Source: Hymenobacter cheonanensis (lineage in GTDB: Bacteria; Bacteroidota; Bacteroidia; Cytophagales; Hymenobacteraceae). Taken from it: a DNA stretch of 64,000 bases. The notes beneath the pieces are model-generated. The model made no database searches, had not been told where the DNA came from, and worked only from the letters and a program-made list of their open reading frames with translations. The DNA is taken from positions 186,001-250,000 of the forward strand of contig NZ_JAUQSW010000008.1 in NCBI RefSeq assembly GCF_030581075.1, given 5' to 3'. Position 1 is the first letter of the stretch; every line of letters starts with the position of its first letter. The position numbers were made by a program, and so were the translations under genes. Positions 42,931 through 61,977 of this stretch are shown here, in pieces.

Positions 42931-43708
42931 CCAGGAAGTGTTAGCAGTCACGCAACCAAAGGACAGTCGCCGCCAAGTGAACCAAGGCCAAAAAATGCGC
43001 GGCGAGTTTGTCATTGCGCGTGACCACGCGCCGAAACTGCTTTAACCGGCTGAAAAGCCGCTCGACGGGGTGGGGCTGTGCGTAGCGGGCCGTATCATAG
43101 GCCCGCGGGAGACGGCGCTTGCGCCGGGGCGGAATCACGGCGCAGCTACCACGGGCGGCCAGCGCGGCCACGAGCGGGTCGGAAGCGTACCCCCGGTCAG
43201 CCACCCCGTAGGCCGGGGCCAGGCCATCGAGCAGGGGCAAGGCCTGCGGCGCATCGTGGCGCGGCCCCGCGCTCAGGCCACAACGCCCCAGCCGTCCGCG
43301 CGCCGCGGCGGCCACGGGCAGCTTGCTGGTCAAGCCGCGGCGGCGGCGCCCCAGGGCTCGCGCCCCGCTCGCGTGCTGGTACGCCCGTACGGTAGGCGAA
43401 TTGACGAGCAGCGTGTGCGCGGCCTGGTCTTGCTGCGCAGCCGCCAGCACCCAGGCCCACACGCCGGACGCGGCCCAGTGCTGGAAGCGGGGGTACGTGG
43501 TGGGCTAGTCGCCCCACTCAGCCGGCAAGGCCCGCCACCGGCAGCCGGTGCGAGCCAGCCCAAGCACGGCCCCTACAAAGCGGCGGTTGTCCTGGCCGCG
43601 GCCCCCGCTCGTGCCCGCCCGACCTGGCCGGCGCGATGCGCGCCCACTGCAAGGCTGTCAGCAGATAAGCCATGCCTCAAGTTAGCAACCACTATGAACA
43701 CCTCCTGG
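42931..43708 (-). mobile_element. Decayed IS5-family element, TA target duplication
   Basis: 778 bases with imperfect terminal inverted repeats (CCAGGAAGTGTTAGCAGT at 42931-42948; the other end 43691-43708), flanked by TA at 42929-42930 and 43709-43710. The ends closely match those of the element at 61201-61977. TA duplication and the two-frame transposase fit the IS427-like part of the IS5 family. Confidence 0.8.
42941..43673 (-). pseudogene. IS5-family transposase, dead
   Basis: From ATG 43671-43673 (MAYLLTALQWARIAP) the frame breaks soon. The conserved parts continue in other frames with an in-frame stop (GD*PTTYPRFQ) before an intact-looking C-terminal half, ending HPVERLFSRLKQFRRVVTR. 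The first catalytic Asp is replaced: LLVNSPTVRAYQ here against LLVDSTTVRAHQ in the other copy. Confidence 0.8.
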
Positions 43709-43815: not shown

Positions 43816-45369
43816 ATGGCACATGTATTAGTTTCGTGGCTGGCTTACGGCCATGACTTTATTCGGGGGGAAAACAACGCCTTTGTGGGCGTGGACGAAA
43901 CTGGTCCCACGGTGCAGTTTCATCGGCATTTCTACGCGGTTGGCGAGTACGATGAACACATTATTCTGTATGCCGAAGCACGCCAGGAGAACCTCGCGGA
44001 GCGGCTGCTGGCTGACTTATTGCGTCGGCATCCTGGCCGGGTAATACAAATAGAACTGCTGCCGGTGCGGGATATCATCAGTCTGCGCGAAGTAAAAGAC
44101 AAGGTCGAAACGTGGCTGCTGCAACGCCCTGGCGACGAGTTGACGCTATACTTTTCGCCCGGTACCAGTGTGATGCAGCTGGCCTGGTACATTGCTCACA
44201 CTACCCTAGGGCTGCACACCCACCTGGTGCAGACGCGGGCCGCCCGCTTTGGCCCCGGCGGCCAGCCCGAGCTGCTACAACTGGAGGTAGCACAGTCGGT
44301 TGCCCCGGTTTCAGCCATCATTCGGGAGCAGCAAGTGGCCACGCGCACGGCCAGCGAAGCACCAGGGGCTACCCTGCGGGCGGCCCGCCGCGTAAAGGGC
44401 CACCCGGCCCTGCTGCCTAGTGCAGAGCCGGTTGCTGTGCCCGCTTTCTTGGCGCTGCCGGTGCTAGCCAGCGTATACCGTCGGGCGGGGCAGGTGGCGC
44501 AGACCGATAAGGTGACGGTGCTGATACGCGGGGAGAGTGGCACTGGTAAAGAGCATCTGGCTCGCACTGTGCACGAGCAGTCAGCACGGGCCGGACAGCT
44601 TTTTTTGGCCCTCAACTGCGCCGCGCTTACCGAGTCGACGCTGGAGAGCCGGTTGTTTGGCCACCAAAAAGGAGCATTCACGGGGGCTACGGAAGATGCC
44701 AAGGGCTTATTCGAACTCGCTGATGGCGGAACCGTGCTGCTCGATGAAATCGGGGATATCAGTCCGGCTACGCAATTGGCGCTGCTACGGGTGTTGCAGG
44801 AAGGCGAGATTCAGCCAGTGGGCGGCCAGCCCCGGCGCGTAGATGTGCGCGTAGTGGCTGCTACGCACACCAATCTGGAGGAGCGCTGCCAGCAAGGCCG
44901 CTTCCGTTGGGATTTGTACTACCGCCTGGCCGTGGCCGAGTTGGAGCTACCTACTTTGCGCGACTACCCCTTGGCCGAACGGGAGCATCTGCTCGGTTTC
45001 TTGGTAGCGGCCAAGCAGCGGAGCCTGCGCCGCCCGGCCCCACTGGTCTTAGCCCCCGAAACCCGGCAGCGACTACTGGCCTATCCTTTTCCGGGCAATG
45101 TGCGCGAGCTGGAAAACCTGGTGGAAACGCTCTACGTGTTTGCCGAGCCGGGCCAGCCAGTACCGCCTACCGAGCTGCCCCGCCGGCTGCTACCTAGTGG
45201 GATAGGGGAGGAGTTTGCCTTGGGTACGCTGGAAGCCGCCACGGCCGCCTATGTGGCACGGGCCGTGGCCCGCTGCGGCGGCGTGAAGCGTCAGGCTGCC
45301 CGGCTGCTCGACGTAGACGAGCGCGTAGTGGCTAAATACCTGCGGCAACATCGGCAGGCGACTGGATAA
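43816..45369 (+). CDS. Sigma-54-dependent activator with CARF/RtcR-like N-terminal domain
   Basis: 517 residues from ATG 43816 ([15 protein letters not shown]). Residues 1-165 look like a CARF-type Rossmann domain: HIILYAEA strand, then [20 protein letters not shown] near 115, the position where CARF domains bind nucleotide ligands. Residues 205-430 are the AAA+ activator: Walker [14 protein letters not shown], the sigma-54-contacting KGAFTGAT, Walker [12 protein letters not shown]. The end has an HTH ([21 protein letters not shown]). RtcR, which controls RNA repair genes, has the same architecture. The ligand here is unknown. It reads toward a -24/-12 promoter-like site and the helicase-nuclease gene. 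Confidence 0.85.
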
Positions 45370-45428: not shown

Positions 45429-45460
45429 TTGCATTTTATGCAATGCACGGCATAAAATGC
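45429..45460. promoter_or_regulatory. Putative enhancer (UAS) for the sigma-54 activator
   Basis: GCATTTTATGC (45431-45441) and GCATAAAATGC (45450-45460) form an 11-bp perfect inverted repeat; TTGCATTTTATGCAA (45429-45443) is itself a palindrome. It lies about 85-115 bases before the predicted transcription start, the usual distance for activator binding sites of sigma-54 promoters. Confidence 0.55.
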
Positions 45461-45517
45461 AGAAGGTGAGACTGTGCGTAAGATGCTAAGCTATTGATAG
45501 ACAAGGAGAGGTAATGT

Positions 45518-45532
45518 TGGCAAAGAGTTGGC
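45518..45532 (+). promoter_or_regulatory. Putative sigma-54 promoter (-24/-12)
   Basis: TGGCAAAGAGTTGGC has GG and GC exactly 12 bases apart and differs from the TGGCAC-N5-TTGC consensus at two positions. It lies 74 bases before the ATG of the helicase-nuclease gene and about 150 bases after the activator gene. Confidence 0.55.
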
Positions 45533-45605
45533 CTACAAGTGAGTGCCGTCTGGTTGCTGGAATAGTCTCTGGTAACGGCAGCGCTCACCACCTAGTTAGT
45601 TTTTC

Positions 45606-48600
45606 ATGCTCACCCTTGCCGAGCTAACCTCACTATCTCCTGCCCTGGTGGCCGAACTGACCCGCCTCAATGAGTGCCAGCGCCAGGCTGTGATGCACCC
45701 CGCAGGGCCACTGCTGGTAGTGGCCGGCCCCGGCACCGGCAAAACGCAGTTGCTGGCCACTCGCGTGGCCTGGCTATTGGGGCAATTGGTTGCACCGCCC
45801 GAGGAAATCCTGTGCCTGACTTACACCGACGCGGCTGCCCGCAACTTGCGCCAACGCTTGCTGCGTTGCGTCGGCCCCATCGCACACCGGGTGGCCATCC
45901 ACACCTTTCATAGCCTGGGGCAGCTCATCATCCAGGAAAATGCCGACCAGCTGGGTTATCATGACCTGGAACCGGCCTCTGAGCAGGAAGCCGATGCGGT
46001 GCTGCGCGAGCTGCTCGATGCGCTGCCCGCCGGCCACGCGCTGCGCCGCGACCTGGGCGATGCCTACTACGACCTGCCCCACCTGCGGCAGCTGTTCCAA
46101 GCCATGAAGCGCGAGGGCTGGGCACCTGCCGAACTGCTGACCGCGCTGGCTGCCCACCGCCTGGGCTTATCCCAAAACCCCGCCTACCGTTACAAAAACC
46201 CACCTGCCGCCCTGCGCGCCCAAGGCGTGCAGCCGGGCGACGCCAATCTGCACAAGGTGGCCGAGGAAGCCGCTCGCCTACAGCGCTCGGCGGCGGCCAT
46301 GGGCTTATTTGAGCAGTACCAGGCCGGGCTGGCCGCCCGCCGCCGCTTCGACTACGACGATATGCTGGCCTGGGCTAGCGGCCTGCTCCGCGACCACCCG
46401 CTGCTGCGCCTGGGTTACCAGGAGCGTTTTCAGCACCTGCTGGTAGATGAGTTTCAGGACACCAATGGGGCGCAGAGCCGCCTGCTGTATTTGCTGGCCG
46501 GCGACGGGCCGGTGCCCAACCTGCTGGTAGTGGGCGACGACGACCAGAGTATTTTCCGCTTTCAGGGGGCAAGCGTGACCAACGTGCTCGACTTTGCCAA
46601 ACGCTACCCGCAGGCTGGCGTGGTGGTGCTGGAAGAAAATTATCGTTCGTCGGGCCCGGTATTGGCCGCCGCCCAAGCCCTCATTAGCTGTAACCGGGAG
46701 CGGCTGGTGGGACGACTACCAGGCCTGCCGGCCAAGCAGCTACTGGCGCGGCACCCACACTTTGCCGCGCTCACCCAGCCGCCCCGGCTCCACCGCTACG
46801 CCACCCCGCTGCACGAGGCGGCCGACGTAGCCGCTCAGCTCGCCGCCTTGCACCGCGACGGGCCGTGGCCGGCGGGTGGGGTAGGCGTGCTGGCCCGTAC
46901 CCACAGCCAGCTCGACCAGCTGGCCGGGCTGCTGCAGGCAGCCGGGGTGCCTTTTCGCCGCCGCCGGGCCGTAAACGTGCTGGCCGAGCCGCTGGCCCAG
47001 AGCCTGCACGCTGTACTGCGCTACCTGGCCGCTGCCCTGCACCCCCACGGTCAATTGGACGCTGACGCGGCTTTGTTCGAGCTGCTGCACCTGACCCTTT
47101 TTGCCGTGCCCCCGGCCGACCTGGCCCGCCTGGCCATCGGGCATCAGTACCACCGCCGCCTGGCTGCCGCCGCCGGCCGGCCTGTGCAGAGCTGGCGCTT
47201 ATGGGCCGATACCGCGCTCACCGACCTCGACTTGCTGGCGACCTCACCCGGGCAGCCCCCGCTCTCCGATGCCGGCCGCCCGGCCCTGAGCTACGCCCTG
47301 ACCCTGCTCGATGGCTGGGTGCAGGCCGCCGCCACCCTGCCGCTGCCGGCCCTGCTGGAGCGCGTAGTGCTGAGTACCTTGCTACCAGTTGGGTTAACCC
47401 AGGCTACCCAGCCCGCGCAGCTGCTGGCCGAGGCGCGCACCCTGCTGCGCTGGGGCCGGAGCGAGGCCCGCCGGATGAGGGCAGCTGGCGTAGCCGAGCT
47501 GCTGGCCGCCTGGGAAACGCTGGCGGCCACCCGCGAGGGGCTGCCGCTGGAACCGGGCACCGAAGGCGGCGTGGCCCCGCTGGAGCTGCTCACGGCCCAC
47601 AGCGCCAAGGGCCTGGAGTGGGAGCAGGTGTGGCTGCTGGGCTGCCAGCAAACGGCCTGGCGGCGCAAGCCCGCCGACCGGGGCTTCCGCCTGCCCCCCG
47701 CTCTGGCCGCGCCCCCCGGCGAAGCCGCCGACTGCGAAGAGGCCCGCCGCCTTTTTTTCGTGGCCCTGACCCGCGCCCAGGCAAAGCTCACCGTGTGCTG
47801 GGCTACGTATGACGAGGCCGGCAAGGAGCTGGCCCCCTGCGAGTTCGTGGACGAGCTGCACCAGCAAGGACTAGCCCTGACTGAGGTAACGGTAGCCCCC
47901 ACCGTGCTGGCCGCCGCCCACCAGGCCGAACTGGCCCTGCCACCACCACCCGCCCCCCTGCCCGATGCGGCACTGCTCGACGAGCTGCTGGCCGACTTCA
48001 CGCTGAGCGCTACGGTGCTCAACGCCTACCTGGCCTGCCCTGTGGCCTGCTACTACGAGCAAATCCTGCGCGTGCCCGCCCCCCGCCACGAGAAGCTGCT
48101 GTTTGGTGCAGCCGTGCACCGGGCGCTGGAGCAATTTTTCCAGCAGGCCGGGCAGCGGCCTGGTGCGGGCTTCGGGCCAGCCGACGAGCTAGTCGAGTTG
48201 TTCCGGCAGCAGTTTACGCGGGCCCGCTTTGAAGTGCTGGGGCTGGCGTTTCAGCGGCTGTTCTACGCCGGGCCAGAGCTGCTACGGGCTTGGTGGGCGC
48301 AGGCCCAGCCCCGCGCCCGCCCCACCTCCCTGGTCGAGTACCGCGTGCAAGCCGAGCTGCCCGGCGGGCTGCCCCTGGTGGGCACGCTCGACCGCCTCGA
48401 CCTACACCCCGACGGCCACCACGGCGACGTGCTGGACTACAAAACCGGCAACCCGACTGCCGCCGCCGCGAAGCTGCGCCCCGCGCCGCCCGAAGCCGCT
48501 ACCGCCTCGCTGGCCGAGTGGCTCGCCGACCCCGCCCTGCGCGGCGGCGACTACTGGCGGCAGGGCATCTTTTACCGCTTACTGCTGGCCCATGACCCTG

Positions 48601-48827
48601 AGCAGCCCTACGCGGCGGCCTCCGTTACCTTCGATTTTTTGCGCCCAGTGCAGGCGGCCGGCCAGCCCCCGCAGTTCGTGCGCCGCCAGGTGGCGGCCAC
48701 CCCGGCCGATGAGGCGACGGTGCTGGCCCAAATCCGGGCCGTGGACGCGGCCATCCGCCGCCATGAGTTCAACCCCGGCTGCGGCCAGTGCCGCTGGTGC
48801 CGCCTGCGGGCCAATTCGCCCGCCTAG
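45606..48827 (+). CDS. UvrD-type helicase fused to Fe-S PD-(D/E)XK nuclease
   Basis: 1073 residues. Superfamily 1 helicase motifs run in order: AGPGTGKTQL (I, near 40), LVDEFQDTNGAQ (II, near 280), VVGDDDQSIFRFQGAS (III), AHSAKGLEWEQVW (V) and FFVALTRAQ (VI). The C-terminal 270 residues form a RecB/Cas4-like nuclease: CPVACYYE, GAAVHRALEQFF, GTLDRLDL, LDYKTGNP (catalytic Asp and Lys), then CGQCRWC. The cysteine spacing fits an AddB/Cas4-type 4Fe-4S cluster. It may unwind and cut DNA ends. It lies between the sigma-54 site and cas6, separated from cas6 by 152 bases. Confidence 0.88.
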   Translation: MLTLAELTSLSPALVAELTRLNECQRQAVMHPAGPLLVVAGPGTGKTQLLATRVAWLLGQLVAPPEEILCLTYTDAAARNLRQRLLRCVGPIAHRVAIHTFHSLGQLIIQENADQLGYHDLEPASEQEADAVLRELLDALPAGHALRRDLGDAYYDLPHLRQLFQAMKREGWAPAELLTALAAHRLGLSQNPAYRYKNPPAALRAQGVQPGDANLHKVAEEAARLQRSAAAMGLFEQYQAGLAARRRFDYDDMLAWASGLLRDHPLLRLGYQERFQHLLVDEFQDTNGAQSRLLYLLAGDGPVPNLLVVGDDDQSIFRFQGASVTNVLDFAKRYPQAGVVVLEENYRSSGPVLAAAQALISCNRERLVGRLPGLPAKQLLARHPHFAALTQPPRLHRYATPLHEAADVAAQLAALHRDGPWPAGGVGVLARTHSQLDQLAGLLQAAGVPFRRRRAVNVLAEPLAQSLHAVLRYLAAALHPHGQLDADAALFELLHLTLFAVPPADLARLAIGHQYHRRLAAAAGRPVQSWRLWADTALTDLDLLATSPGQPPLSDAGRPALSYALTLLDGWVQAAATLPLPALLERVVLSTLLPVGLTQATQPAQLLAEARTLLRWGRSEARRMRAAGVAELLAAWETLAATREGLPLEPGTEGGVAPLELLTAHSAKGLEWEQVWLLGCQQTAWRRKPADRGFRLPPALAAPPGEAADCEEARRLFFVALTRAQAKLTVCWATYDEAGKELAPCEFVDELHQQGLALTEVTVAPTVLAAAHQAELALPPPPAPLPDAALLDELLADFTLSATVLNAYLACPVACYYEQILRVPAPRHEKLLFGAAVHRALEQFFQQAGQRPGAGFGPADELVELFRQQFTRARFEVLGLAFQRLFYAGPELLRAWWAQAQPRARPTSLVEYRVQAELPGGLPLVGTLDRLDLHPDGHHGDVLDYKTGNPTAAAAKLRPAPPEAATASLAEWLADPALRGGDYWRQGIFYRLLLAHDPEQPYAAASVTFDFLRPVQAAGQPPQFVRRQVAATPADEATVLAQIRAVDAAIRRHEFNPGCGQCRWCRLRANSPA

Positions 48828-48979
48828 GCCAGTAACTTGCCCGCATTGTGCCCATTACCGAAGGGCTGGATAATTGAAAAATATTTTCTATGGAGAATAA
48901 AAATACTGCGGCCGGCCCACTACCTTGCAGCGCTAATGATAATGGCAAAACCTCTCCTAATAACTTTAGCTAGATTCCC

Positions 48980-49648
48980 TTGCGACTCCACCTCTACCTG
49001 GATGCTCCCTCGGTGGTCACCTTCGACCATCTGCCAGCTTTAAAAGGGGCATTTCACCGTTGGACGGGCCACAACCCCAACCTGCACGATGGCCTGTCCC
49101 TGTACTCATTTTCGTGGCTGCGCGGCGGCCGGGGCACCCGCGGTGGCCTGCGCTTCGAGCAAGGAGCGCATTGGAGCATCGCAGCCCACGACCCGGCCGT
49201 TATCCACGAAATCATTTCCGGCGTCATCAGCAAGCCCGGCCTCGACCACGGCCTGGTCGTGCGCGATGCCCGCATCCAGACCGTGCCCGACTTCGAGGCC
49301 GGCGAGCGGCACTTCCGCGTCCTCAGCCCGGTGTTCATCAAGGACGAGGTAGAAAAGGGCAAGCCCGCCAACCACCTGCTGCCCGGCAACCCTCGTGCCG
49401 ACGAGCTGCTCACCGAAACCCTGCGCCACAAGCTCCGCAAAGCCGGCCTGGACGACGCGGGGGCCACCGTGCGCTTCGACCCGGCCTACATCGCCACGGC
49501 CAAAACCAAGTGGTTCGATTACAAAGCCATCCGCTGCAAAGCCAGCGTGTGCCCGGTGCTGGTATCGGGCACGGCCGAACAGCTGCGCTTCGCCTGGTGT
49601 GTGGGGGTAGGCCACTCCACGGGCATCGGCTGCGGGTGCTTGGAGTAG
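48980..49648 (+). CDS. cas6: CRISPR-associated endoribonuclease Cas6
   Basis: 222 residues, starting at TTG 48980; an in-frame TAG just upstream rules out a longer start. The C-terminal glycine-rich loop GVGHSTGIGCGCLE is the Cas6 hallmark, and the double-ferredoxin layout fits. Cas6 cuts the array transcript inside each repeat, leaving an 8-base 5' handle. The repeat ends (ATTGAAAG or ATTGAAAT) match the usual handle form. It is the first cas gene of the operon. Confidence 0.88.
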   Translation: MRLHLYLDAPSVVTFDHLPALKGAFHRWTGHNPNLHDGLSLYSFSWLRGGRGTRGGLRFEQGAHWSIAAHDPAVIHEIISGVISKPGLDHGLVVRDARIQTVPDFEAGERHFRVLSPVFIKDEVEKGKPANHLLPGNPRADELLTETLRHKLRKAGLDDAGATVRFDPAYIATAKTKWFDYKAIRCKASVCPVLVSGTAEQLRFAWCVGVGHSTGIGCGCLE

Positions 49649-49870
49649 CTACTTCTTCTTGGCGGCGGCTTGCTCCTGCGCCCGGCGTATCATTTCCTCG
49701 CAGCTTACCACGTTGCCCCGCGTGGCCCGTAAGCGCCGCCAGGCATCCTCGGCACCCGGTCCCTGAAAAGAGTTGTGGAGGCTAGGCGCGGCAGAGGTAA
49801 TATCGGAGTTCTCCGAGGTCATCGGCGACTTGGACTCCGAGGGCTGCGAATTTTCCGGTGAGGTCGTCAT
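49649..49870 (-). CDS. Small antisense ORF between cas6 and cas5
   Basis: 73 residues from ATG 49868-49870. Residues 1-35 are Ser/Pro-rich and probably disordered. The C-terminal half (EDAWRRLRATRGNVVSCEEMIRRAQEQ) is a charged helix. It ends one base from the cas6 stop on the other strand, and its start lies 33 bases from the cas5 ATG. A TATTTTTG element (49883-49890, minus) sits 12 bases before the ATG, supporting expression. I do not recognise the family. Confidence 0.55.
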   Translation of the reverse strand: MTTSPENSQPSESKSPMTSENSDITSAAPSLHNSFQGPGAEDAWRRLRATRGNVVSCEEMIRRAQEQAAAKKK

Positions 49871-49882
49871 ACCCTGAATCTA

Positions 49883-49890
49883 CAAAAATA
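49883..49890 (-). promoter_or_regulatory. -7 promoter element of the antisense ORF
   Basis: TATTTTTG on the minus strand, TAnnTTTG type, 12 bases before the ATG of the 73-residue ORF. Confidence 0.5.
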
Positions 49891-49902
49891 AACCGACTGT
49901 TT

Positions 49903-50622
49903 ATGGATAATCTGCCACTTGACCTACTGCTGCCTCCACCTGACTATACAGCTCGTGGTATACTGGAAATAAGCGCTCTGTCACCCTTGTCAATGGTGGC
50001 AAAGATGCCGGGCAAGTACTACGCCAGCCAATCTGAACCAACGCAGGCAATGCTTTTGGGTGCGCTGGAAAATGCGCTGGGCTGGCATCTAGGCGAGGTG
50101 GAGCGCAATCAGCTTATCAAGACCCTAGAGAAAAAGCACAAGCATAAAGCCCAGGCTTCAGGCGTAGGGTTTCGCAGCCTACTGCAATGGCATGTGCGAT
50201 TTGGTGTGTTGGTGGTGCCACCGCTGCTTTACTACGACGACCTATGGACACAGCACCTGAAAGGAAAAACGTTTGTGGATGGCAGCCGCAACTATGATGC
50301 GCAGGCTATTCCCTTCATGAATGCCAAGCGGGGCGGGCTCGTCACTACCTCCGACGCAGCAAAGGCCCGCAAGGGTGCGGAAGTCCTGGCTGACTTTCAG
50401 GAAGGTGACGAAGTAAGCATTACTGTACTGCGGCCCTACTTTCCGCAATACTATTCCAGCCCGACGCTGCGCGGCTATGTGGAGCCGCAAGGGCCTTATC
50501 GGGTGGGCATCGAAACTTCTCCAGCGCTGGCTGAAGTCCTGCGGGCGGCCATTGCTGACCCAGCGGCACCGCTTTATCTAGGCTCCAATGATGGCTGGAT
50601 TGAACTTGATTGGCATGAATAA
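49903..50622 (+). CDS. cas5: Cas5 family protein
   Basis: 239 residues from ATG 49903 (MDNLPLDLLLPPPDY). The core ISALSPLSMVAKMPGKYY and LGALENALGWHL near residue 60, with the end PLYLGSNDGWIELDW, fit Cas5, which caps the 5' handle in type I Cascade. It resembles the Cas5 variant of the PGING-type systems, but the assignment to that subgroup is tentative. It overlaps cas8 by 8 bases, showing translational coupling. Confidence 0.8.
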   Translation: MDNLPLDLLLPPPDYTARGILEISALSPLSMVAKMPGKYYASQSEPTQAMLLGALENALGWHLGEVERNQLIKTLEKKHKHKAQASGVGFRSLLQWHVRFGVLVVPPLLYYDDLWTQHLKGKTFVDGSRNYDAQAIPFMNAKRGGLVTTSDAAKARKGAEVLADFQEGDEVSITVLRPYFPQYYSSPTLRGYVEPQGPYRVGIETSPALAEVLRAAIADPAAPLYLGSNDGWIELDWHE

Positions 50623-52342
50623 GAAACCTACTGTTGCACCGGCGGGCCAAGCGGAACTGTTTGGCAGCCCCAGCCAGACGGCGCTCATCCCGGCGCTATC
50701 TGCCCCTGTTGCGGAAGCGAATGGTTTAGTGTTAGAGGAACTGAGCGCGCAGCTACTACACTCTTATCCTCGCTATGGATTGGCAGTCGCCGCCTACTTA
50801 GCTCAACTGCCCGAAACGGTAACGGAGGCAGCCTTGCGCACCGCTTTGGTGCGGGCTATTGAAGCTGGCTTGGGGAAGTTTAGGATGCGCACTTGGAATA
50901 ACTCGCTGCATGATAAAGTGCTGCGCTTCGAGTCGATTAAGCTAGGTGAACTTGCTGACAAGCCTCAGCTAGTGCAGTCGGCGGGGCTAGCGGCACAAGG
51001 CATCTACTTGTTTCCCACGCTGGTAACAACTGATGGCGGTGCAAAGGATACTTTTCGCAACGCCCAAGAGATTAGCAAGCTACTGCAAGGCAGCACACCC
51101 CTGTCGGCCACGTTCACCCTCAGCCGCTCTTTTGCACCGACTACTGCCAAAATAAACAACGGTACGGCCTCACAGAGTCCACCGCCGGGCACCCTGTTAG
51201 AAGCAGCCTGCGCCGTTATTACTACCGTCACGCACCTAAAACCCGCCGCCTGGCCGGGGGTAAATACGGTTATTATTCCCGATTTGTCCCTGCCACAGCT
51301 GCGAGAGTTTATAGCGGTTTTTGAAGAAATGTTAGGGCAGGAAACCGCCGACTTGATGTGCACCAAGGAGCGGCCGCTTGCCGTGATGGCGGCCCCTAAG
51401 GCAACCGGCAAAGCAGCAAAACCCGCGGCGTCGGAGTTTCGCCGGCCGCGCCTACACTCGGGCAACTATCCTGATGCGCCCCGCGATGCAGGTGCATTTG
51501 GGCCGGTGGGGCTACTTGGGGCTATCGGGCGCTGGGCGCGGCGCACTAAGCAACATGGCTGGGGCCGGGCGGTGCTGGCTACCCTAGCCGGGCAACCGCT
51601 GCACGTTATTTCCTACGAGCAGATAAATCAAGTACGCTTCGACCACCATACTACGCGCCTGGCGTTGGACCACGACCTGACCAGCATCGTGGATTCGCTG
51701 TACCTGGGCACCCAGTTTTATTCCGAAGCCGGTAAGCCCGGAACCCCGTTTGGCAAGCCGGAATTCAAAACCTTCTGCCTGATTGCGGGCCGCTTTCTGC
51801 AAAGCTTTACCACGGCAGCCTTCATTGATTTTATGGCCTTCCGGGCCGAATACGCCGCTGAGATTGAACCACTTTTCACTGAATATTTCCGCACCATGAA
51901 ACCTGAAATTGTAGCGTCGGCCGGCGAGCTTGGGCGCTGGCTGAACCGCACGGCCTATTTTGAGGCCAAGGCCGAGGCCGAAGACTTTCCCTCTAAGAAA
52001 AAAGGCAAGGACCAGCAAATGAAGGAGGGAAAGGCAAAAATCCTGGTCGTGCTGGAAAGCGCCGCCCTGAGCGCCAAGTCGCCCGAAGCCATGATTTCGC
52101 AGGTGCTCACCCAGGCCGGGCGAATGTCGCTGGATGAAGCGCCCGACGAGGCCCGCCGCTTTATCGATGCCGCGAACACCGGGGAGATTACCCATGAGCA
52201 GGCTAAGCACCTGCTGATTTCCTACATGCGGTTGCGTAGCGTGGGCAAAAGCAAAGCTGTTGTGGACGAAGTGAAAGCAGCTGGCAGCACCGACAGTGAA
52301 CCGCAGGCGACCGAAGATTACGACCATTCAATTGATAACTAA
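50615..52342 (+). CDS. Cas8-like large subunit (Csp2-type)
   Basis: 575 residues from ATG 50615, inside the end of cas5; an ATG at 50588 is an alternative. No catalytic motif. The conserved stretches (RPRLHSGNYPDAPRDAG, FKTFCLIAGRFLQSFTTAAF) and the position between cas5 and cas7 indicate the Cascade large subunit that recognises the PAM. The size and gene order are closest to Csp2/Cas8c-type subunits of PGING-like systems. Named by position and length rather than a strong motif. Confidence 0.7.
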   Translation: MNKKPTVAPAGQAELFGSPSQTALIPALSAPVAEANGLVLEELSAQLLHSYPRYGLAVAAYLAQLPETVTEAALRTALVRAIEAGLGKFRMRTWNNSLHDKVLRFESIKLGELADKPQLVQSAGLAAQGIYLFPTLVTTDGGAKDTFRNAQEISKLLQGSTPLSATFTLSRSFAPTTAKINNGTASQSPPPGTLLEAACAVITTVTHLKPAAWPGVNTVIIPDLSLPQLREFIAVFEEMLGQETADLMCTKERPLAVMAAPKATGKAAKPAASEFRRPRLHSGNYPDAPRDAGAFGPVGLLGAIGRWARRTKQHGWGRAVLATLAGQPLHVISYEQINQVRFDHHTTRLALDHDLTSIVDSLYLGTQFYSEAGKPGTPFGKPEFKTFCLIAGRFLQSFTTAAFIDFMAFRAEYAAEIEPLFTEYFRTMKPEIVASAGELGRWLNRTAYFEAKAEAEDFPSKKKGKDQQMKEGKAKILVVLESAALSAKSPEAMISQVLTQAGRMSLDEAPDEARRFIDAANTGEITHEQAKHLLISYMRLRSVGKSKAVVDEVKAAGSTDSEPQATEDYDHSIDN

Positions 52343-52367
52343 TAATTCACCCTCTTCTTTCTTTCCC

Positions 52368-53312
52368 ATGATTATTAAAGGTATTCTCGTTACGATGCTG
52401 GCCCCCATGAGCGACCACATCGCCAATGCGGGCGAAAAGCTGCTGGGTAATGCGTCGTCCATCAAGCGGCGGCCCGATGGGCGCGTGTATATTTCGGGCC
52501 AGATGCAGCGCCACGCGCTGTTTTCGGCCCTCGACCGGCTCAATGCCGACGACGAAGGCCGGGGCCAGACCTACGTTTCGAACGGCGACGGCGTCACCAA
52601 CGTGGTAGAAACCGACCTACGGGCCGACCTTGGAGGGTTCCTGCAAACGTCGAAGGAAACCTATTCGGGGCGGCGCACCGCACCGGTTTCGGCCACGCCA
52701 GCGGTGGCGCTGGAGTCGAGTAGCATTGGCCGCGACCTGCTGATTCGCCTCAAAATGGAAGCAGAGGGCGACTCCCGAGGGCAGGCCGTGGCCACCCGCG
52801 AGTTCTCGCAGGACGACACGATGCTGATGAGCTTCTTTGTGGATGTGAGCGCCGTAGGCATCCGCAAGCGGTTCAGCTACGAAAAGGAATTGCACGTGCG
52901 CACGGAATACGTGCGCCACATCAGCGAAGCCGAGCGCAAGCGCCGCATCCGGCTGGCGCTGGAAGCCACCGCCGCCCTGACCGACTACGCCAACCAAGCC
53001 CGCAATGCTACCAGTGGCGAGCCGCAGCAAGTACTATTGGTGTTCGATACCCGCTTGTCGCGCAAGGCGAGCCGCTACTTTAAAGCGACTGCCGCCGAAC
53101 AGCGCAATATTCTGGCCGAGCTAGCAGCACGGGGAGCCACGTACTTTCTGGGCGACGACACCGCCGAAAGCGGCGACAGCACCGCTACAGCCTACCAGAA
53201 AGCGCAGGAGTTCTTGGCCAGTAATGACCTTTTTGACCCCGCTCCTGGCGCAGCCGTGCAAACTACGGCAGACTTTGAAAAAAGCACGAAGCCCGAAAAA
53301 GCCGCCAAATAG
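52368..53312 (+). CDS. cas7: Cas7 family protein (DevR type)
   Basis: 314 residues from ATG 52368 (MIIKGILVTMLAPMSDHIANAG). GRVYISGQMQRHALFSAL near residue 40 and DLLIRLKMEAEGDSRG followed by a KRFSYEKEL strand fit the DevR/Cas7 family that forms the backbone along the guide RNA. The C-terminal 60 residues are acidic and polar. It follows cas8 and precedes cas3 by 29 bases. Confidence 0.8.
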   Translation: MIIKGILVTMLAPMSDHIANAGEKLLGNASSIKRRPDGRVYISGQMQRHALFSALDRLNADDEGRGQTYVSNGDGVTNVVETDLRADLGGFLQTSKETYSGRRTAPVSATPAVALESSSIGRDLLIRLKMEAEGDSRGQAVATREFSQDDTMLMSFFVDVSAVGIRKRFSYEKELHVRTEYVRHISEAERKRRIRLALEATAALTDYANQARNATSGEPQQVLLVFDTRLSRKASRYFKATAAEQRNILAELAARGATYFLGDDTAESGDSTATAYQKAQEFLASNDLFDPAPGAAVQTTADFEKSTKPEKAAK

Positions 53313-53341
53313 CAAGCAAATCTCTTCTGACCGTTGGCCCT

Positions 53342-55651
53342 ATGGAACTGCTGGCTAAACCCGACGGAACGACCCTAGCTGCCCATACGCAGCACGTGCG
53401 CGACGAAACCGCGCACGTGCTAGCGGCCCGGCCGTTTCTGATTTATAAATACGCCGTTAGGACAGGGCACAATCTACTGGCGCTAGCCGATGCCTGCGCC
53501 CGCTGGCACGACGAAGGAAAAGCACATCCAGCCTGGCAGCAGGCTTGCCGCCAAGATTTCGAGCAGGCGCAGCAAACCGGAAAGGTACAGGGCCTGCACC
53601 TACAAAAAAGTGGGGTGCGCCACGAATTTGCTTCGCTGGTGAAAATGCGCAATGTGCGTAATGAGTGGCCGCCAAAGCTTACGTATGTCGCCGTGGCGGC
53701 GCACCACGGCAAACTCGGCTTTCGCTACCAAAAACGGTGGGCCGACGACCCAGCTTTTAAGCCTTTCTGGTACGAGCAATTTTTACCGCTCAGTGCCGAG
53801 TTACGGCCAGACCGCCCCGCTGATTTTGACCAAGCCATTGCCCGGCGCTACGAATACGGCGGCCTGCGGGCGGTGCTACGGCTGGCCGACCACCGCGCCA
53901 GTGCCCGTGAAGCGCATCGGAGTGCGGCTGCGCCAGCGGTGCCGCAGCTGAGTGCCTTTCGCTATAAATTTCCCTGGGACACCCAAACCGGTGTTCAAAC
54001 CTTGATTCCGCATTTTTGGGACGAGCCGTTTGCGCTGTTGCGGGCTCCTACTGGCGCTGGCAAAACCGACGCGGCCCTCTTGTGGGCACGGCGGCAAATC
54101 ACGACAGGCCGCGCCGACCGGCTGGTGTGGGCTATGCCCACACGCTTCACTGCCAATGCCTTGTACATCAGTACCACCGAAACCCTGAGTAGTACCGGTC
54201 TGTATCACTCCAGTGCCTGGTTTGTGGTTCAGCAACGCGAGCAGGAACAGCGCGGGCAGGGCCAGCCAGCGGCGGCATGGAAGAAGGAACTCGACTACGC
54301 CCGGCTACTTGAAACGCCCACTACCGTCACGACGATTGACCAGCTTTGCCTGGCGCTGACGGCTACCCGCGAAGACCACCACGCAACTTTTTGGAACCTC
54401 GCCCATGCGTGCGTCGTGATTGATGAAGCCGATTTCTACGACGATTTTACGCAGCGCAATATGGTGGTGCTGCTACGGGCGCTGCGGCTATTGGGAGTGC
54501 CGGTGCTGCTAATGAGTGCTACGCTTCCCGCATCGGCCTTAGAACTTTATGCACTCTCGGGCCTGCGGGCCACCAAAATATGGGAAGACCTGACCGACTA
54601 CGAACGCACTCGTTTTCGGCTTCATCGGGCCGGGCCAGCTGAACACCCAACCGACCTTACAACTCTGCTGGAACGGGGGCTGAATGGTGAGCCGCTTATC
54701 ATTTATGCCAATACCGTGGGGCGGGCACAAGCCTACTGGGACTGGTTTCAACGGCCGGATATGAAGTACCCCGTGGTCCTTTACCACTCACGGTTCACCG
54801 AGCCGGATAAAAATGAAGTCGAGGGCCGACTATTAGCCATGCTTGGCCCCAAGGCCTGGAAAAGCAGCAATCCTACTGGCGTAGCCATCCTGACCCAAAT
54901 CGGGGAGTTGAGCGTCAATATAAGTGCCGACCTAATGGTGGCTGACTTATGCCCGACCGACCGATTAGCCCAACGAGCAGGCCGTTTATCACGGTTTCGG
55001 GACCGGTACGACAAAAAACAACAGGTAGTAGGCGAGCTACACTTGGTAACGCCTCAGAAAACCGACAAAAAAGGTACAACAGATTTTTATCCTGCTCCCT
55101 ATGGTCATTATCGGCAAGGTCAGGGCTGGTTAAGCAGCGCAGTGCTCGACCAGGCAGGCGCTCAATTAACAGCGGGTGAGTATTCAGCCCGGCGCTTAGT
55201 GGATTTAGTGAACGAGCTATACCCTAAAGTAGCCGAAGAAACCACCGAAATATGGGCTAATCGTAGGGCGTTGGAAACTGCTGTAGTGGCCAATTGGCTC
55301 CTGCTACCAAAAGCCGAAACTGAGCAGGACGACGAAGAAACGCCCACCTGGAAAAGCCGTGATATTGGTCCTCAGAAAGTAGTATATGCGTCCACTAACT
55401 TCTCCGCGCTTTTGGGGGAGGGCGACCCGGTAGTTTTCGCTAACTCGTTCGCCTTTCGAGAATGGGCACTTCCTCATGCTATCACCATACCGGTTTACGA
55501 TTTTCGACGGGCACAGGAAGCCGGCAAGCTGGTAGAAGTAGGTATTCATATTAGCCAGGAGCGGGAAATAATCTGGACGGTAAAGGCCGATTACTACGAC
55601 TCATTACATGGCTTACGCTTTGATAAAGCGCCGAGCCCAGAAGACGAATAG
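53342..55651 (+). CDS. cas3: Cas3 helicase-nuclease
   Basis: 769 residues. The N-terminal HD nuclease has ARWHDEGKAHPAW and AVAAHHGKLG. The helicase follows with Walker A APTGAGKTDAALL near 237, VVIDEADFYDD (DEAD-like), LLMSATLPA and, near the end, QRAGRLSRF. Cas3 is recruited by Cascade to unwind and degrade target DNA. Normal length and no breaks. Confidence 0.93.
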   Translation: MELLAKPDGTTLAAHTQHVRDETAHVLAARPFLIYKYAVRTGHNLLALADACARWHDEGKAHPAWQQACRQDFEQAQQTGKVQGLHLQKSGVRHEFASLVKMRNVRNEWPPKLTYVAVAAHHGKLGFRYQKRWADDPAFKPFWYEQFLPLSAELRPDRPADFDQAIARRYEYGGLRAVLRLADHRASAREAHRSAAAPAVPQLSAFRYKFPWDTQTGVQTLIPHFWDEPFALLRAPTGAGKTDAALLWARRQITTGRADRLVWAMPTRFTANALYISTTETLSSTGLYHSSAWFVVQQREQEQRGQGQPAAAWKKELDYARLLETPTTVTTIDQLCLALTATREDHHATFWNLAHACVVIDEADFYDDFTQRNMVVLLRALRLLGVPVLLMSATLPASALELYALSGLRATKIWEDLTDYERTRFRLHRAGPAEHPTDLTTLLERGLNGEPLIIYANTVGRAQAYWDWFQRPDMKYPVVLYHSRFTEPDKNEVEGRLLAMLGPKAWKSSNPTGVAILTQIGELSVNISADLMVADLCPTDRLAQRAGRLSRFRDRYDKKQQVVGELHLVTPQKTDKKGTTDFYPAPYGHYRQGQGWLSSAVLDQAGAQLTAGEYSARRLVDLVNELYPKVAEETTEIWANRRALETAVVANWLLLPKAETEQDDEETPTWKSRDIGPQKVVYASTNFSALLGEGDPVVFANSFAFREWALPHAITIPVYDFRRAQEAGKLVEVGIHISQEREIIWTVKADYYDSLHGLRFDKAPSPEDE

Positions 55652-55681
55652 ACTTCTTAAACAGCCGTAATCACCTAACCC

Positions 55682-56185
55682 ATGCACATCACTGGCAAGC
55701 ACATCAACTACTACCACATCTGCCACCGCAAGCTGTGGCTGTTTGCCAGCGGGCTGAGCTTTCAGCAGGACAACGAGCATGTGCAGGACGGCACGCTGCT
55801 TCACCTGTCGGCCTACCCGCAGCGGGCGCGGCGGTTTCGGGAGGTGCAGCTGGGCGGCATCAAGATTGACTTCTACGACCCGGTGGATAAGGTGGTGCAC
55901 GAAATCAAGCGCAGCCAGAAGCTGGAAGAAGCCAGCGTGGCGCAGCTCAAATACTACCTGCGGGTGCTGGAGCAGCACGGCGTAGCTGGCCCCACGGGCG
56001 TGCTGGAGTACCCAAAGCTGCGCCGAACTCAGGAAGTGATATTGACCGAGCAGGACCGGGCCGACATCGAGGCCTGGGAAGCTGGTGTGGCCGAGGTAGT
56101 GGCCCGTGCGCAGTGTCCACCAATTATTGACAAGCCCTTTTGCAAGCAGTGCGCTTACTACGAGTTCTGCTACGTGCACGAATAG
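55682..56185 (+). CDS. cas4: Cas4 exonuclease
   Basis: 167 residues. MHITGKHINYYHICHRKLWLF opens the family with the first Cys, HEIKRSQKLEEASVAQLKYYL holds the catalytic Glu-Ile-Lys triad region, and FCKQCAYYEFC supplies the remaining Fe-S cysteines. Cas4 trims and orients new spacers during adaptation. Its Fe-S nuclease domain is the same class as the C-terminal domain of the helicase-nuclease upstream. Confidence 0.93.
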   Translation: MHITGKHINYYHICHRKLWLFASGLSFQQDNEHVQDGTLLHLSAYPQRARRFREVQLGGIKIDFYDPVDKVVHEIKRSQKLEEASVAQLKYYLRVLEQHGVAGPTGVLEYPKLRRTQEVILTEQDRADIEAWEAGVAEVVARAQCPPIIDKPFCKQCAYYEFCYVHE

Positions 56186-56312
56186 CCTGCTTAAAAGAGT
56201 AGGCAACTGCTTACCTACCTGTATCCGCAGCTGAGTAATCTGCCTAAAAACCTAGTCAGCCTGCTGTAGGCGGGCGTGTCTGTGAAATCAATTAAATCTA
56301 TTTAAATCTGCG

Positions 56313-57323
56313 GTGAAAAAAACGTACTACCTGTTCAATCCGGGCCGGCTGAGTCGGCAGGATAATACACTCAAATACACGGCCTACGATGAAGAAGGCG
56401 GGGAAGGGCAGACACGCTTTCTACCCGTGGCCGATGTAGCTGACCTTTATGTGTTTGGCTCGCTCGATGCCAACTCGGCGCTATACAATTTCCTAGGTAA
56501 AAACGGGGTGTCGGTGCATTTCTTCGACTACTACGAGCACTATACTGGCTCTTTTATGGCCAAGGAGTACCTGCTAGCCGGCAAGGTGCAGGTGGCGCAG
56601 ACTGGCCACTATATGAGCCGCAAGAAGCGCCTAGTGCTAGCGCGCAAGCTGGTGGAGGGCGCGGCTTTTAACCTACTCAAAAACTTGCGCTACTACCAGA
56701 GTCGGGGCCGCGATGTGGCCGCCCAGTTTGCGCAGATGGAACTGTACGTATCGGCGCTGCCGCATGCTACAACGGTGCCCGAAATCATGGGCTACGAAGG
56801 CAATATCCGGCAGACCTACTACACCTGCTACGAAGAGTTGGTAAAGGTGCCGGGTTTCACCTTCGGCACGCGGAGCACGCAACCGCCGCAAAATGAGTTG
56901 AACGCGCTGCTGAGCTTCGGCAATATGCTCTGCTACGCGGCCTGTCTGTCGCAGATTTACCATACGCAGCTCAACCCTACCATTTCTTTCCTGCACGAGC
57001 CGGGCCATCGCCGCTTCTCTTTGGCGCTGGACCTGGCCGAGATTTTCAAGCCCCTGCTCGTGGACCGTACCATCTTCCGGTTGGTCAATAAGAAGGAGAT
57101 TCAGCCCAAGGATTTCGAGGCCGCCGTGGGCGGCTGCCTGCTGAAAGAGTCTGGACGTAAGACGTTTGTGCGCGTATTTGAAGAGCGCATGAAGGAAACA
57201 ATCCTACACCGGGGCTTGGGGCGGCCGGTGAGCTATCAGCATTTAGTAAAGCTGGAATGCTATAAGCTGACCAAGCATCTGTTGAACTTGGAAGAGTACA
57301 AACCATTTAAAGCCTGGTGGTAA
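56313..57323 (+). CDS. cas1: Cas1 integrase
   Basis: 336 residues starting at GTG 56313 (MKKTYYLFNPGRLSR). Metal-binding positions appear as GYEGNIRQTYY (Glu), FLHEPGHRRFSLALDLAE (His and Asp). It inserts new spacers at the leader end. The 127-base gap after cas4 carries small A/T direct repeats (TTTAAATCT type). The sequence fits the Cas1 branch found with type I-B systems. Confidence 0.94.
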   Translation: MKKTYYLFNPGRLSRQDNTLKYTAYDEEGGEGQTRFLPVADVADLYVFGSLDANSALYNFLGKNGVSVHFFDYYEHYTGSFMAKEYLLAGKVQVAQTGHYMSRKKRLVLARKLVEGAAFNLLKNLRYYQSRGRDVAAQFAQMELYVSALPHATTVPEIMGYEGNIRQTYYTCYEELVKVPGFTFGTRSTQPPQNELNALLSFGNMLCYAACLSQIYHTQLNPTISFLHEPGHRRFSLALDLAEIFKPLLVDRTIFRLVNKKEIQPKDFEAAVGGCLLKESGRKTFVRVFEERMKETILHRGLGRPVSYQHLVKLECYKLTKHLLNLEEYKPFKAWW

Positions 57324-57324
57324 G

Positions 57325-57588
57325 ATGTACGTAATTTTGGTATACGACGTGAAGCAACAACGCGTAGGCAAGCTGCTTAAACTTTGCCGTCGCTACCTAC
57401 ATTGGATACAGAATTCTGTATTTGAGGGCGAAATCAGCGAAGCAAAGCTGCAGGAGTTACTGCTAAAGGCTGCTTCTTTTTTGGACCAGAAGGAGGATAG
57501 CATTCTCATCTTTAGAAGTCGCACGGAGCAGTGGCTGGAAAAGCAGGTCTGGGGCCATGAGCGAAGCCCATTGGGGTCGTTTTTGTAG
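57325..57588 (+). CDS. cas2: Cas2
   Basis: 87 residues beginning MYVILVYDVKQQRVGKLLKL, with the conserved Asp (YDV) and the C-terminal SPLGSFL tail. It begins one base after the cas1 stop, so the two are co-translated. It forms the Cas1-Cas2 integrase complex. Confidence 0.94.
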   Translation: MYVILVYDVKQQRVGKLLKLCRRYLHWIQNSVFEGEISEAKLQELLLKAASFLDQKEDSILIFRSRTEQWLEKQVWGHERSPLGSFL

Positions 57589-57781
57589 GGTTAGCCAGTT
57601 GTCGATACAAAATTAAGTAGCCAAGTTTCGGCTCTCTTATCTGTGCTCAGAGTATAAATACTTGATTTATAGAGTCGTCGCACGCCCAGGATTTTCCTCT
57701 TATTGCTGACCGACGACTTGAGGTATTTTTTAATGTGCGTTTCTGCTGCGCTAAGACGTATTTTTGAGTATAAATTGGCGG
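57589..57781 (+). promoter_or_regulatory. CRISPR leader with array promoter
   Basis: AT-rich 193 bases between cas2 and the first repeat. TATTTTTG at 57759-57766 fits the -7 element and lies 15 bases before the first repeat. AGTCGTCG (57673-57680) and CGACGACT (57711-57718) form an inverted repeat, and AGTATAAATACT (57651-57662) is a palindrome; either may be integration or protein sites. Confidence 0.75.
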
Positions 57782-60700: not shown

Positions 60701-61192
60701 CCGGCATTGGCTTCAATTGGACTAGGAGGAATTGAAATTCGGCACCGACCACGACAGCATGAAAAAGCTCGTGAGCTTCAATTGGACTAGGAGGAATTGA
60801 AATGACACCCGCCCCGCCGGCCGGCTTCATGGGGCACTCGCTTCAATTGTACTAGGAGGAATTGAAATAGCGTCGCCGTAAAGGCTGTACACCAACGGGT
60901 CGGCGATTCAATTGGACTAGGAGGAATTGAAATGCCCGGCTGGGTTTGTTGACTTAGGCCGTCGGCCGGCTTCAATTGGACTAGGAGGAATTGAAATCGA
61001 GCAGCCAGATAGCCACGTCTAGCAGGCTTTGGCGCTTCAATTGGACTAGGAGGAATTGAAATATCTACAACCATCGCTTGGGCTCCATTTCTAGAGAGGC
61101 TTCAATTGAGCTAGAAGAAATTAAAATATTATTATCATATTATGTAATCCGGGTAACATAACAGCTTCAATTGGACCAGGAGGAATTGAAAT
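57782..61192 (+). CRISPR. CRISPR array, 53 repeats, 52 spacers
   Basis: A 29-base repeat, beginning GCTTCAATTGG and ending GAATTGAAAG, with spacers of 35-38 bases (mostly 36). TTCAATT and AATTGAA pair as a 7-bp stem around GGACTAGGAGG. Repeats 1-41 end in G, and repeats 42-53 (from 60449) end in T. Repeats 48, 49, 52 and 53 carry point changes, with 52 (61099-61127) the most degenerate. The leader is at the left and the oldest repeats at the right, where the array breaks after 8 bases of the 53rd spacer against an IS. Count done by hand. Confidence 0.97.
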
Positions 61193-61200
61193 ATCGAGCT

Positions 61201-61977
61201 AGGAAGTGTTAACAGTAGGTGGTATGTCTGGGCATGGAGTATTTGCTAACCGCCGAGCAGTGGGCGCGTATTGAGCCGCTGCTGCCAGGGCGCGAAGGGA
61301 CGAAAGGTGGCCGGGGCCAGGACAACCAGCGCTTCGTGGAGGCGGTTCTCTGGCTGACGCGCAACGGCTGCCGCTGGCGGGCCCTGCCAGCCGAGTGGGG
61401 CAACTGGCACACCACGTACACGCGCTTCCAGCGCTGGACGGCCTCGGGCGTGTGGGCCCGGGTGCTGGCGGCTGTACAACAAGACGATGCGCTGCACACG
61501 CTGCTGGTGGACTCGACGACCGTGCGGGCCCACCAGCACGCCAGCGGAGCGCGCAAAAAAACGGGCCACAAGCCCTCGGGCGCAGCTGCGGCGGCTTGAC
61601 CAGCAAGCTGCATGTGGTGGCCGATGCCCGAGGCCGATTCCTGCGCGGCGGCCTGCCGGCGGGGCAGCGCCACGACGCGCCGCAGGCCTTGCCGTTGCTC
61701 GACGGCCTGGCCCCGGACTACCTCATTGCCGACCGGGGCTACGATTCCAACCCGCTTGTGGTCGCCTTGGCTGTGCGCGGCACACAAGCCGTGATTCCAC
61801 CCCGGAGCAGACGCCGCACCCTACGAGCCTACGACGCGTTTCGCTACGCCCAGCGCCACCCCGTTGAACGGCTATTTAGCCGTCTCAAGCATTTTCGCCG
61901 CGTGGCCACGCGCTACGACAAGTTGGATGCGCATTTTCTGGCTTTTATTCAGTTGGCAGCAACTGTTAACACTTCCT
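61201..61977 (+). mobile_element. IS5-family element at the array end
   Basis: 777 bases with 16-bp perfect terminal inverted repeats (AGGAAGTGTTAACAGT at 61201-61216 and its complement at 61962-61977). No flanking target duplication is visible, which suggests a deletion or recombination next to the element. Its ends match those of the decayed element at 42931-43708. Confidence 0.9.

Follow-up and report, generated by a model that had tools for sequence, protein, structure and literature searches.

A predicted sigma-54 promoter with paired upstream sites between an RtcR-like CARF regulator gene and a helicase-nuclease gene in Hymenobacter cheonanensis

RtcR, the regulator of the RNA-repair operon rtcBA in E. 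coli and Salmonella, combines a CARF domain, a sigma-54 AAA+ domain and a helix-turn-helix (HTH), and serves a sigma-54 promoter with an upstream site (PMC9650030, PMC7790460; all papers are cited here from parts of their text). RtcR-like regulators have been reported beside restriction-modification (R-M) systems (PMC4012209, Makarova 2014) and with type II CoCoNuTs, type I R-M and Shield (PMC11090510), and sigma-54 activation of downstream defence genes by these proteins has already been predicted (PMC4012209, PMC11090510). Among CARF families, which are typically near cas genes, the RtcR-like family is described as an exception (PMC4012209). Here we analyse a 64,000-nucleotide stretch of the Hymenobacter cheonanensis genome (contig NZ_JAUQSW010000008.1, positions 186,001 to 250,000; the window, whose numbering is used throughout), in which positions 45431-45532, between the genes for an RtcR-like CARF/AAA+/HTH protein (the activator) and a helicase-nuclease, very likely constitute a sigma-54 (RpoN) promoter with two upstream sites for that protein.

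In architecture and neighbours the locus resembles those of the RtcR-like defence regulators, as far as the cited parts describe them, and it differs in lying in Bacteroidota, in having explicit sites and spacing, and in its helicase-nuclease, type III CBASS and BREX contexts. Compared with RtcR and rtcBA, the activator falls under the RtcR cut-offs and has a helicase-nuclease gene and cas genes as neighbours. Csa3 is not known to have a sigma-54 AAA+ domain. It is a CARF protein with a winged HTH and an affinity to type I-A CRISPR, and shares with the activator the position of a CARF-linked transcription factor beside type I CRISPR-cas (PMC4012209). PspF of the phage-shock response and NtrC-type proteins also act on sigma-54 from upstream through an AAA+ ring with GAFTGA (PMC7057263), but have another sensor domain and other targets. 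The accessible parts of the open-access literature that we searched named no DNA sites of RtcR-like regulators outside rtc and held no RtcR-like regulator of CBASS (the CoCoNuT paper mentions CBASS once), no paper joining Hymenobacter, sigma54 and CRISPR, and for CBASS with RpoN a single phage-therapy review. What is new here is an explicit, predicted site-and-spacing rule, with several putative promoters per island and with CBASS, BREX-side and helicase-nuclease contexts.

Paired dyads and a -24/-12 element

The predicted elements of the gap are:
45430..45461, no strand: whole inverted repeat holding both sites; arms TGCATTTTATGC and GCATAAAATGCA, 8 nt apart, complementary at 12/12 positions
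45431..45441, no strand: predicted distal activator site GCATTTTATGC, centre about -108 from the predicted start; the identical 11-mer occurs in the held-out locus L220
45450..45460, no strand: predicted proximal activator site GCATAAAATGC, centre about -89 from the predicted start
45518..45532, plus strand: predicted -24/-12 promoter TGGCAAAGAGTTGGC, from a sequence match and comparative evidence
45544, plus strand: predicted transcription start, 12 bases past the C of GC, from sigma-54 geometry

The stop codon of the activator (45369) and the ATG of the helicase-nuclease (45606) are separated by a gap of 236 bases. A first-pass annotation had described palindromes whose arms pair perfectly and, about 60 bases downstream, a GG and a GC exactly 12 apart, and both descriptions are accurate: the T of TGG in TGGCAAAGAGTTGGC comes 57 bases after the end of the repeat, the first G of GG is at 45519 and the G of GC at 45531. 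Each arm is itself a dyad, GCA-N5-TGC (here GCA-W5-TGC), giving two head-to-head sites 19 bases apart whose centres lie 64 and 83 bases from the GG. A perfect 12-bp arm pair arose in 0/3000 shuffles of the gap; counted with loops of 3-20, such arms occur at 7 distinct places in the window (20 overlapping rows; 20 shuffles average 0.15 rows). The proposed genome search for further copies found the 11-mer GCATTTTATGC at 7 places, the sole close pair being the one at 45431-45460.

The -24/-12 match is weak when taken alone, and the promoter call thus needs comparative evidence. TGG-N10-GC occurs 381 times on both strands of the window and twice in the gap (the second at 45570-45584), and the gap's best sigma-54-type score, under a simple weight table, is reached by 7.2% of shuffles. 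Of the promoter claimed in the annotation, then, the comparative support described below stands, and the match of TGGCAAAGAGTTGGC is not significant by itself.

That support begins with the dyad. A search of 204 genomes of the family gave matches to the CARF part of the activator in 14, nine of them, the window's included, in the genus Hymenobacter. Across the nine same-genus loci (the window and L098-L105, with sister genera left out), GCA-N5-TGC ranks top of 1024 three-base-arm dyads, with 11 sites in the 1827 bases of activator-to-next-gene gaps and presence in 8/9 gaps. In shuffled gaps it reaches a mean of 1.2 gaps and a maximum of 6 (5000 sets), and the best of all 1024 dyads in each of 200 shuffle sets also reaches at most 6 gaps, in 7 sets. 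Elsewhere in these loci, 64 intergenic gaps with roughly ten times the total length (18,081 bases) hold 8 copies. An incidental palindrome would not be expected to be shared in this way.

The distance from dyad to promoter recurs as well. From the dyad end to TGG there are 57 bases (and 76) in the window, 56 in L098 and L104, 56 and 77 in L103, 77 in L099 and in L105 (where the -12 reads GT), 54 in L101 and 66 in L102, so that the long class exceeds the short one by one inter-site step of about 20 bases. When dyads with at least 4 A/T in the centre were paired with TGG-N10-G[CA] within -120 to 160 bases, 13 of 52 pairs fell in the eight spacings 54-57 and 74-77, compared with 0 or 1 for each of 17 control dyads (totals 0-45); the A/T requirement removes L103, whose dyads GCAAGCTTTGC and GCAGGTATTGC lie 77 and 56 bases from TGG. 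Over 12 gaps, some with ends set by hand, the summed best -24/-12 score exceeds all 1000 shuffle sets under the simple table of sigma-54 weights, and TGG-N10-GC is present in 7/12 gaps (shuffles average 2.7, and 9/1000 reach 7).

These distances bear on the possibility that the dyads are genuine activator sites whose functional promoter lies elsewhere in the vicinity, either displaced or recognised by a different sigma factor, with 45518-45532 unused. The score of TGGCAAAGAGTTGGC alone, the second TGG-N10-GC at 45570-45584 and the -12 deviations of several relatives leave some room for this. A scan, which does not cover Bacteroidota promoters, found no sigma-70-type promoter, and a dyad-TGG distance held at 56-57 in the window, L098, L103 and L104 and at 77 in L099 and L105 makes an unused 45518-45532 quite improbable in our judgement.

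The held-out locus L220, on plasmid NZ_CP095057.1 of Hymenobacter sp. 5414T-23, has an activator 53% identical to that of the window, divergent from a helicase-nuclease homolog 50% identical. Its intergenic region carries GCATTTTATGC, the same 11-mer, facing the helicase, with CGG-N10-GA 75 bases on. Together with the recurrence of dyad and spacing in relatives, this divergent locus upholds the annotation's view of enhancer-like palindromes and a -24/-12 promoter.

It also speaks to a different account, in which the inverted repeat closes the activator gene as a terminator or RNA hairpin and the -24/-12 match arose by chance. Folding into a structure is feasible (-20 kcal/mol, z -2.3, with 2/200 shuffles equally stable), and L102 has a long terminator-like hairpin, by eye, with the same dyads. 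However, in the minimum-energy fold the arms are not paired with each other, no stem plus T run was found in the gap, and the spacing to the promoter recurs among loci. In L220, L100 and L105 sites precede the helicase or other operons, not the end of the activator gene, and the L220 site, on the helicase promoter side, is a strong argument against a terminator. We rejected the terminator on the fold, the missing T run and the sites before other operons, and regard it as exceedingly improbable.

In the L100 island the arrangement occurs three times outside the activator-to-next-gene gap, at oriented positions 1132-1170, 8283 and 11438: once before the operon upstream of the activator, as paired dyads followed by TGGCCTCATTATAGC, and otherwise before a von Willebrand type A-like gene (by eye; no Pfam match) and before a third gene. 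L105 repeats it at 1804-1845, intergenic, before the operon upstream of its activator. These extra promoter-like sites suggest that one activator may serve several promoters. The operons behind them are uncharacterised and include a coiled-coil plus lipoprotein-like pair and, by eye, a von Willebrand-like one.

Specificity was gauged in several ways. The arrangement was absent from the 450 bases before the approximate starts of 7/7 helicase genes unlinked to an activator. Sites with an all-A/T centre at the right spacing from a promoter match occur 10 times in the nine same-genus activator genomes, 4/10 in activator islands by our own count, and paired all-A/T sites lie at 8 places in the 204 genomes, three of which are activator islands (window, L102 and L105). 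As a means of finding genome-wide targets, the loose pattern GCA[T/A]N4TGC-N54-58-TGG-N10-GC was set aside as too unspecific: each genome and strand gave 2-13 matches, which by eye were mostly GC-rich and resembled coding sequence; it is usable only with an A/T-only centre. In one genome, G010, a paired GCAAAATTTGC-type repeat is present in three scattered copies (C2:56586, C11:420610 and C17:611829).

Several observations weigh against a sigma-54 promoter served by this activator, beyond the shuffle result for TGGCAAAGAGTTGGC. The nine loci are related and not fully independent, and the spacing classes had been recognised ahead of the counting. At -12, L098, L101, L220 and one L100 site have GA and L105 has GT, and at -24, L220 has CGG in place of TGG; such deviations are rare in sigma-54 promoters. 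The activator-to-next-gene gap of L100 has no dyad, and L102 is off in spacing (66), with its dyads inside the longer hairpin seen by eye. In three of the 13 counted pairs, the last two L100 ones described above and a minus-strand one in L105, the dyad falls within an open reading frame (ORF) that was called mechanically. Lone GCA-N5-TGC dyads, without the spacing, precede 2/7 of the unlinked helicase genes (L174, L176). The remaining paired sites are in three genomes with no activator match (G010 with 3 copies, G058 and G111 with single ones), and the loose pattern exceeds its reversed-pattern control (1-7) only modestly.

The activator and its predicted mode of action

The protein that would bind these sites is encoded immediately upstream:
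43816..45369, plus strand: activator gene, 517 aa; CARF-like N-terminus (about 1-160), sigma-54 AAA+ domain with GAFTGA (217-376) and, by eye, a C-terminal Fis-type HTH

Pfam Sigma54_activat (PF00158) matches residues 217-376 with 207.5 bits (1.4e-61; cut-off 20.2), in agreement with the annotation's call of a sigma-54 activator, and the translation reads Walker A GESGTGKE and GAFTGA. DNA binding by the Fis-like HTH, itself recognised by eye, is predicted. The N-terminus gives 18.9 bits (1.1e-3) with Pfam RtcR, below the cut-off of 23.1, and the NCBIfam RtcR equivalog 247.8 bits against a cut-off of 650, its best stretch being residues 219-446 in the AAA+ part. As the equivalog cut-off is missed and the neighbours are not rtcBA, we rejected an assignment to RtcR proper.

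For the CARF assignment, the first 200 residues were modelled on five sequences. All 19 Foldseek matches in the PDB at E <= 0.001 are to CARF proteins (Can2, Csm6, Cad1, Cam1), and a profile search returned Csm6' (4.8e-4) and Csm6 (2.2e-3). The model is of only moderate quality (pLDDT 63), which tells against it; on this structural likeness we assign the N-terminus a CARF Rossmann-like fold. Together these matches support an RtcR-like CARF/sigma-54 enhancer-binding protein, not a generic one.

A search of the genome for rpoN, on which a sigma-54 circuit depends, found the gene present and intact: PF04552 gives one strong match (8.9e-56) and a second, weak one under the cut-off, and the product, 539 aa from the first Met and uninterrupted, has by eye an N-terminal activator-interacting region and an RpoN box. 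With the architecture of the activator and an intact rpoN, the parts needed for a sigma-54 circuit are present.

In the mechanism that we propose, HTH dimers of the activator would bind the two dyads while the sigma-54 polymerase sits closed at 45518-45532. Ligand binding by the CARF domain would lift the block on the AAA+ ring, which would then touch sigma-54 via GAFTGA, and transcription of the helicase-nuclease gene would begin near 45544. Enhancer-binding proteins contact sigma-54 through GAFTGA from sites about 100-150 bases upstream of the promoter (PMC7057263), and the predicted sites, at about -89 and -108, are somewhat nearer. The CARF domain of RtcR holds its own AAA+ domain inactive (PMC9650030). 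With a CARF-gated activator, the helicase-nuclease gene would be silent until damage or infection is sensed.

Sequence cannot separate activation from repression, and the inhibition seen in RtcR could also be invoked for dyads that form a repressor operator or for an activator that represses without ligand. Yet the sites lie upstream of the promoter and not over it, 64 and 83 bases from centre to GG, and the AAA+ domain and GAFTGA are present; we therefore consider repression very improbable and retain sigma-54 activation.

The least certain step is the ligand. By analogy it would most likely be damaged RNA and may be a fragment ending in a 2',3'-cyclic phosphate, for instance tRNA cut in infection or DNA damage. 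Against this, RtcR of E. coli is reported to depend on RtcA and RtcB, and none of the ligands tried activated it in vitro (PMC9650030). No rtcBA genes lie beside the window activator, whose neighbours are a transposase-like ORF (by eye), the helicase-nuclease gene and cas genes; the search for rtcBA covered only this neighbourhood. If the ligand is cleaved tRNA, RNA damage would be linked to a DNA-targeting defence.

Helicase-nuclease, CRISPR-cas and other associated defence genes

Downstream of the promoter, on the same strand, are:
45606..48827, plus strand: likely target, a UvrD-type helicase fused to a PD-(D/E)XK nuclease, 1073 aa (Pfam UvrD-helicase 1.1e-59, PDDEXK_1 2.5e-22)
48980..57588, plus strand: type I CRISPR-cas operon cas6, cas5p, csp2/cas8, csp1/cas7, cas3, cas4, cas1, cas2 (I-PGING names, NCBIfam)

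The helicase-nuclease, for which the best PADLOC models are GajB and RTasHel, is the likely direct target of the predicted promoter. The annotation had named it as such, and the divergent L220 locus, with its site facing the helicase homolog, supports this. Six of nine genomes with the helicase-nuclease also have the activator, vs 14/204 with the activator overall (P 2.4e-6, a value that ignores phylogeny and shared islands and is supporting only). In these six (G000, G044, G065, G086, G090 and G191) the two genes are adjacent in two, on the same contig at about 6-31 kb in three, and on another contig in one.

Among the cas genes, Csp1 scores above its NCBIfam cut-off, Csp2 and Cas5p are significant and below theirs, and cas2 was assigned by position and by reading the ORF 57325-57588. 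One could suppose that the promoter drives helicase and type I CRISPR-cas, some 12 kb, as a single inducible defence operon, an extension compatible with the sigma-54 promoter proposed above. The genes are co-directional, cas6 begins 152 bases after the helicase, and no terminator-like site was found between them on the plus strand. However, the cas module of G038 (L172, same genus) is 88% identical over 8960 bases and comes without an activator or helicase match. The homology block (window 48878-57812 vs L172) is sharply bounded, starting 51 bases past the helicase stop and keeping the 102 bases before cas6, as for a promoter of its own, and L098 and L220, as far as they were read, have the activator and helicase genes but not this cas operon. 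We consider a joint operon unlikely. A broken copy of the module in G093 also lacks an activator or helicase match. The module thus appears to move as a unit with a leader of about 100 bases, and it probably has its own promoter. CRISPR-cas was set aside as the primary target, being separable and present in G038 without those matches; as no terminator-like site was found before it, some read-through from the predicted promoter may occur. A DNA search for cas7 in plasmids found nothing.

A CRISPR array with repeat GCTTCAATTGGACTAGGAGGAATTGAAAG follows cas2 (about 57800-61100). The activator-to-CRISPR island lies between two transposase-like ORFs of inverted orientation, at 42941-43700 (minus) and 61219-61900 (plus), which by eye are of the IS5 type. 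A composite transposon with equal ends was rejected; the two flanking regions are only 75% identical in DNA.

Other defence genes stand next to the activator in relatives. The helicase-nuclease follows it in the window and L098, and an AAA ATPase in L099, L100, L103 and L105 and, after two other genes, in L104; type I R-M genes come after the ATPase in L099 (HsdM model 1.8e-225), L104 (annotation) and L103 (by eye). In L101 activator and dyad lie directly before a type III CBASS (cyclase, HORMA, TRIP13, 2TM/NUDIX effector; tested), and L102 has CBASS-like genes resembling these by eye. L220 carries the BREX genes pglZ and brxL beside its activator and helicase-nuclease.

We put forward tentatively, at a little less than even confidence, that these loci share a transferable Hymenobacter 'alarm promoter' cassette. 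In it a CARF/sigma-54 regulator and paired GCA-W5-TGC sites would stand before varied defences (helicase-nuclease, type I R-M, type III CBASS and von Willebrand-like operons, once with several promoters in an island) and answer one RNA-damage signal; in the window it may raise type I CRISPR-cas by read-through. With an explicit site, spacing and predicted start point, the proposed induction of defence by RtcR-like proteins becomes testable in an environmental bacterium. The motif also offers a way to find further targets and brings CBASS and helicase-nuclease under the same predicted signal.

Activator loci beyond Hymenobacter

In the sister genus (L106-L108) the HTH differs, for example NLTHTTQALGIAKNTLK against VKRQAALTLGIDERTLA, and GCA-N5-TGC is absent from the gaps, as it is from those of L109 (truncated) and L110 in the family. 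Two of the three sister-genus gaps have instead TCAG-N3-CTGA, which by eye lies some 70 bases upstream of a conserved TTGG[C/T]AGCAGGTTTG[C/T]. Such a change of site alongside the HTH would be expected of a protein-DNA pair, with the limit that the sequences are few and other dyads score equally there. Further out, the dyad follows the activator in 0/17 order-level orthologs outside the family (17 stretches, all with the activator), a point to be added to those against our reading, and in Lacinutrix (L003) no GCA-N5-TGC follows the activator.

In other families of the order, six loci (L141-L144, L147-L148) have -24/-12-like sites, such as TTGGCACGAAACTGGC, on the divergent side of the activator, and a recurrent TCAA-N3-TTGA dyad upstream of it, another possible site type. 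Finally, plasmid NZ_CP133672.1 of Aureispira sp. CCB-E (L222, 4833-7449) carries an activator homolog (40%) divergent from a type III-B CRISPR operon (cmr1, cas10, cmr3, cmr4), with, by eye, a TGG-N10-GA some 150 bases upstream of cmr1; a system that makes cyclic oligoadenylate and has a CARF regulator next to it would be a candidate for feedback.
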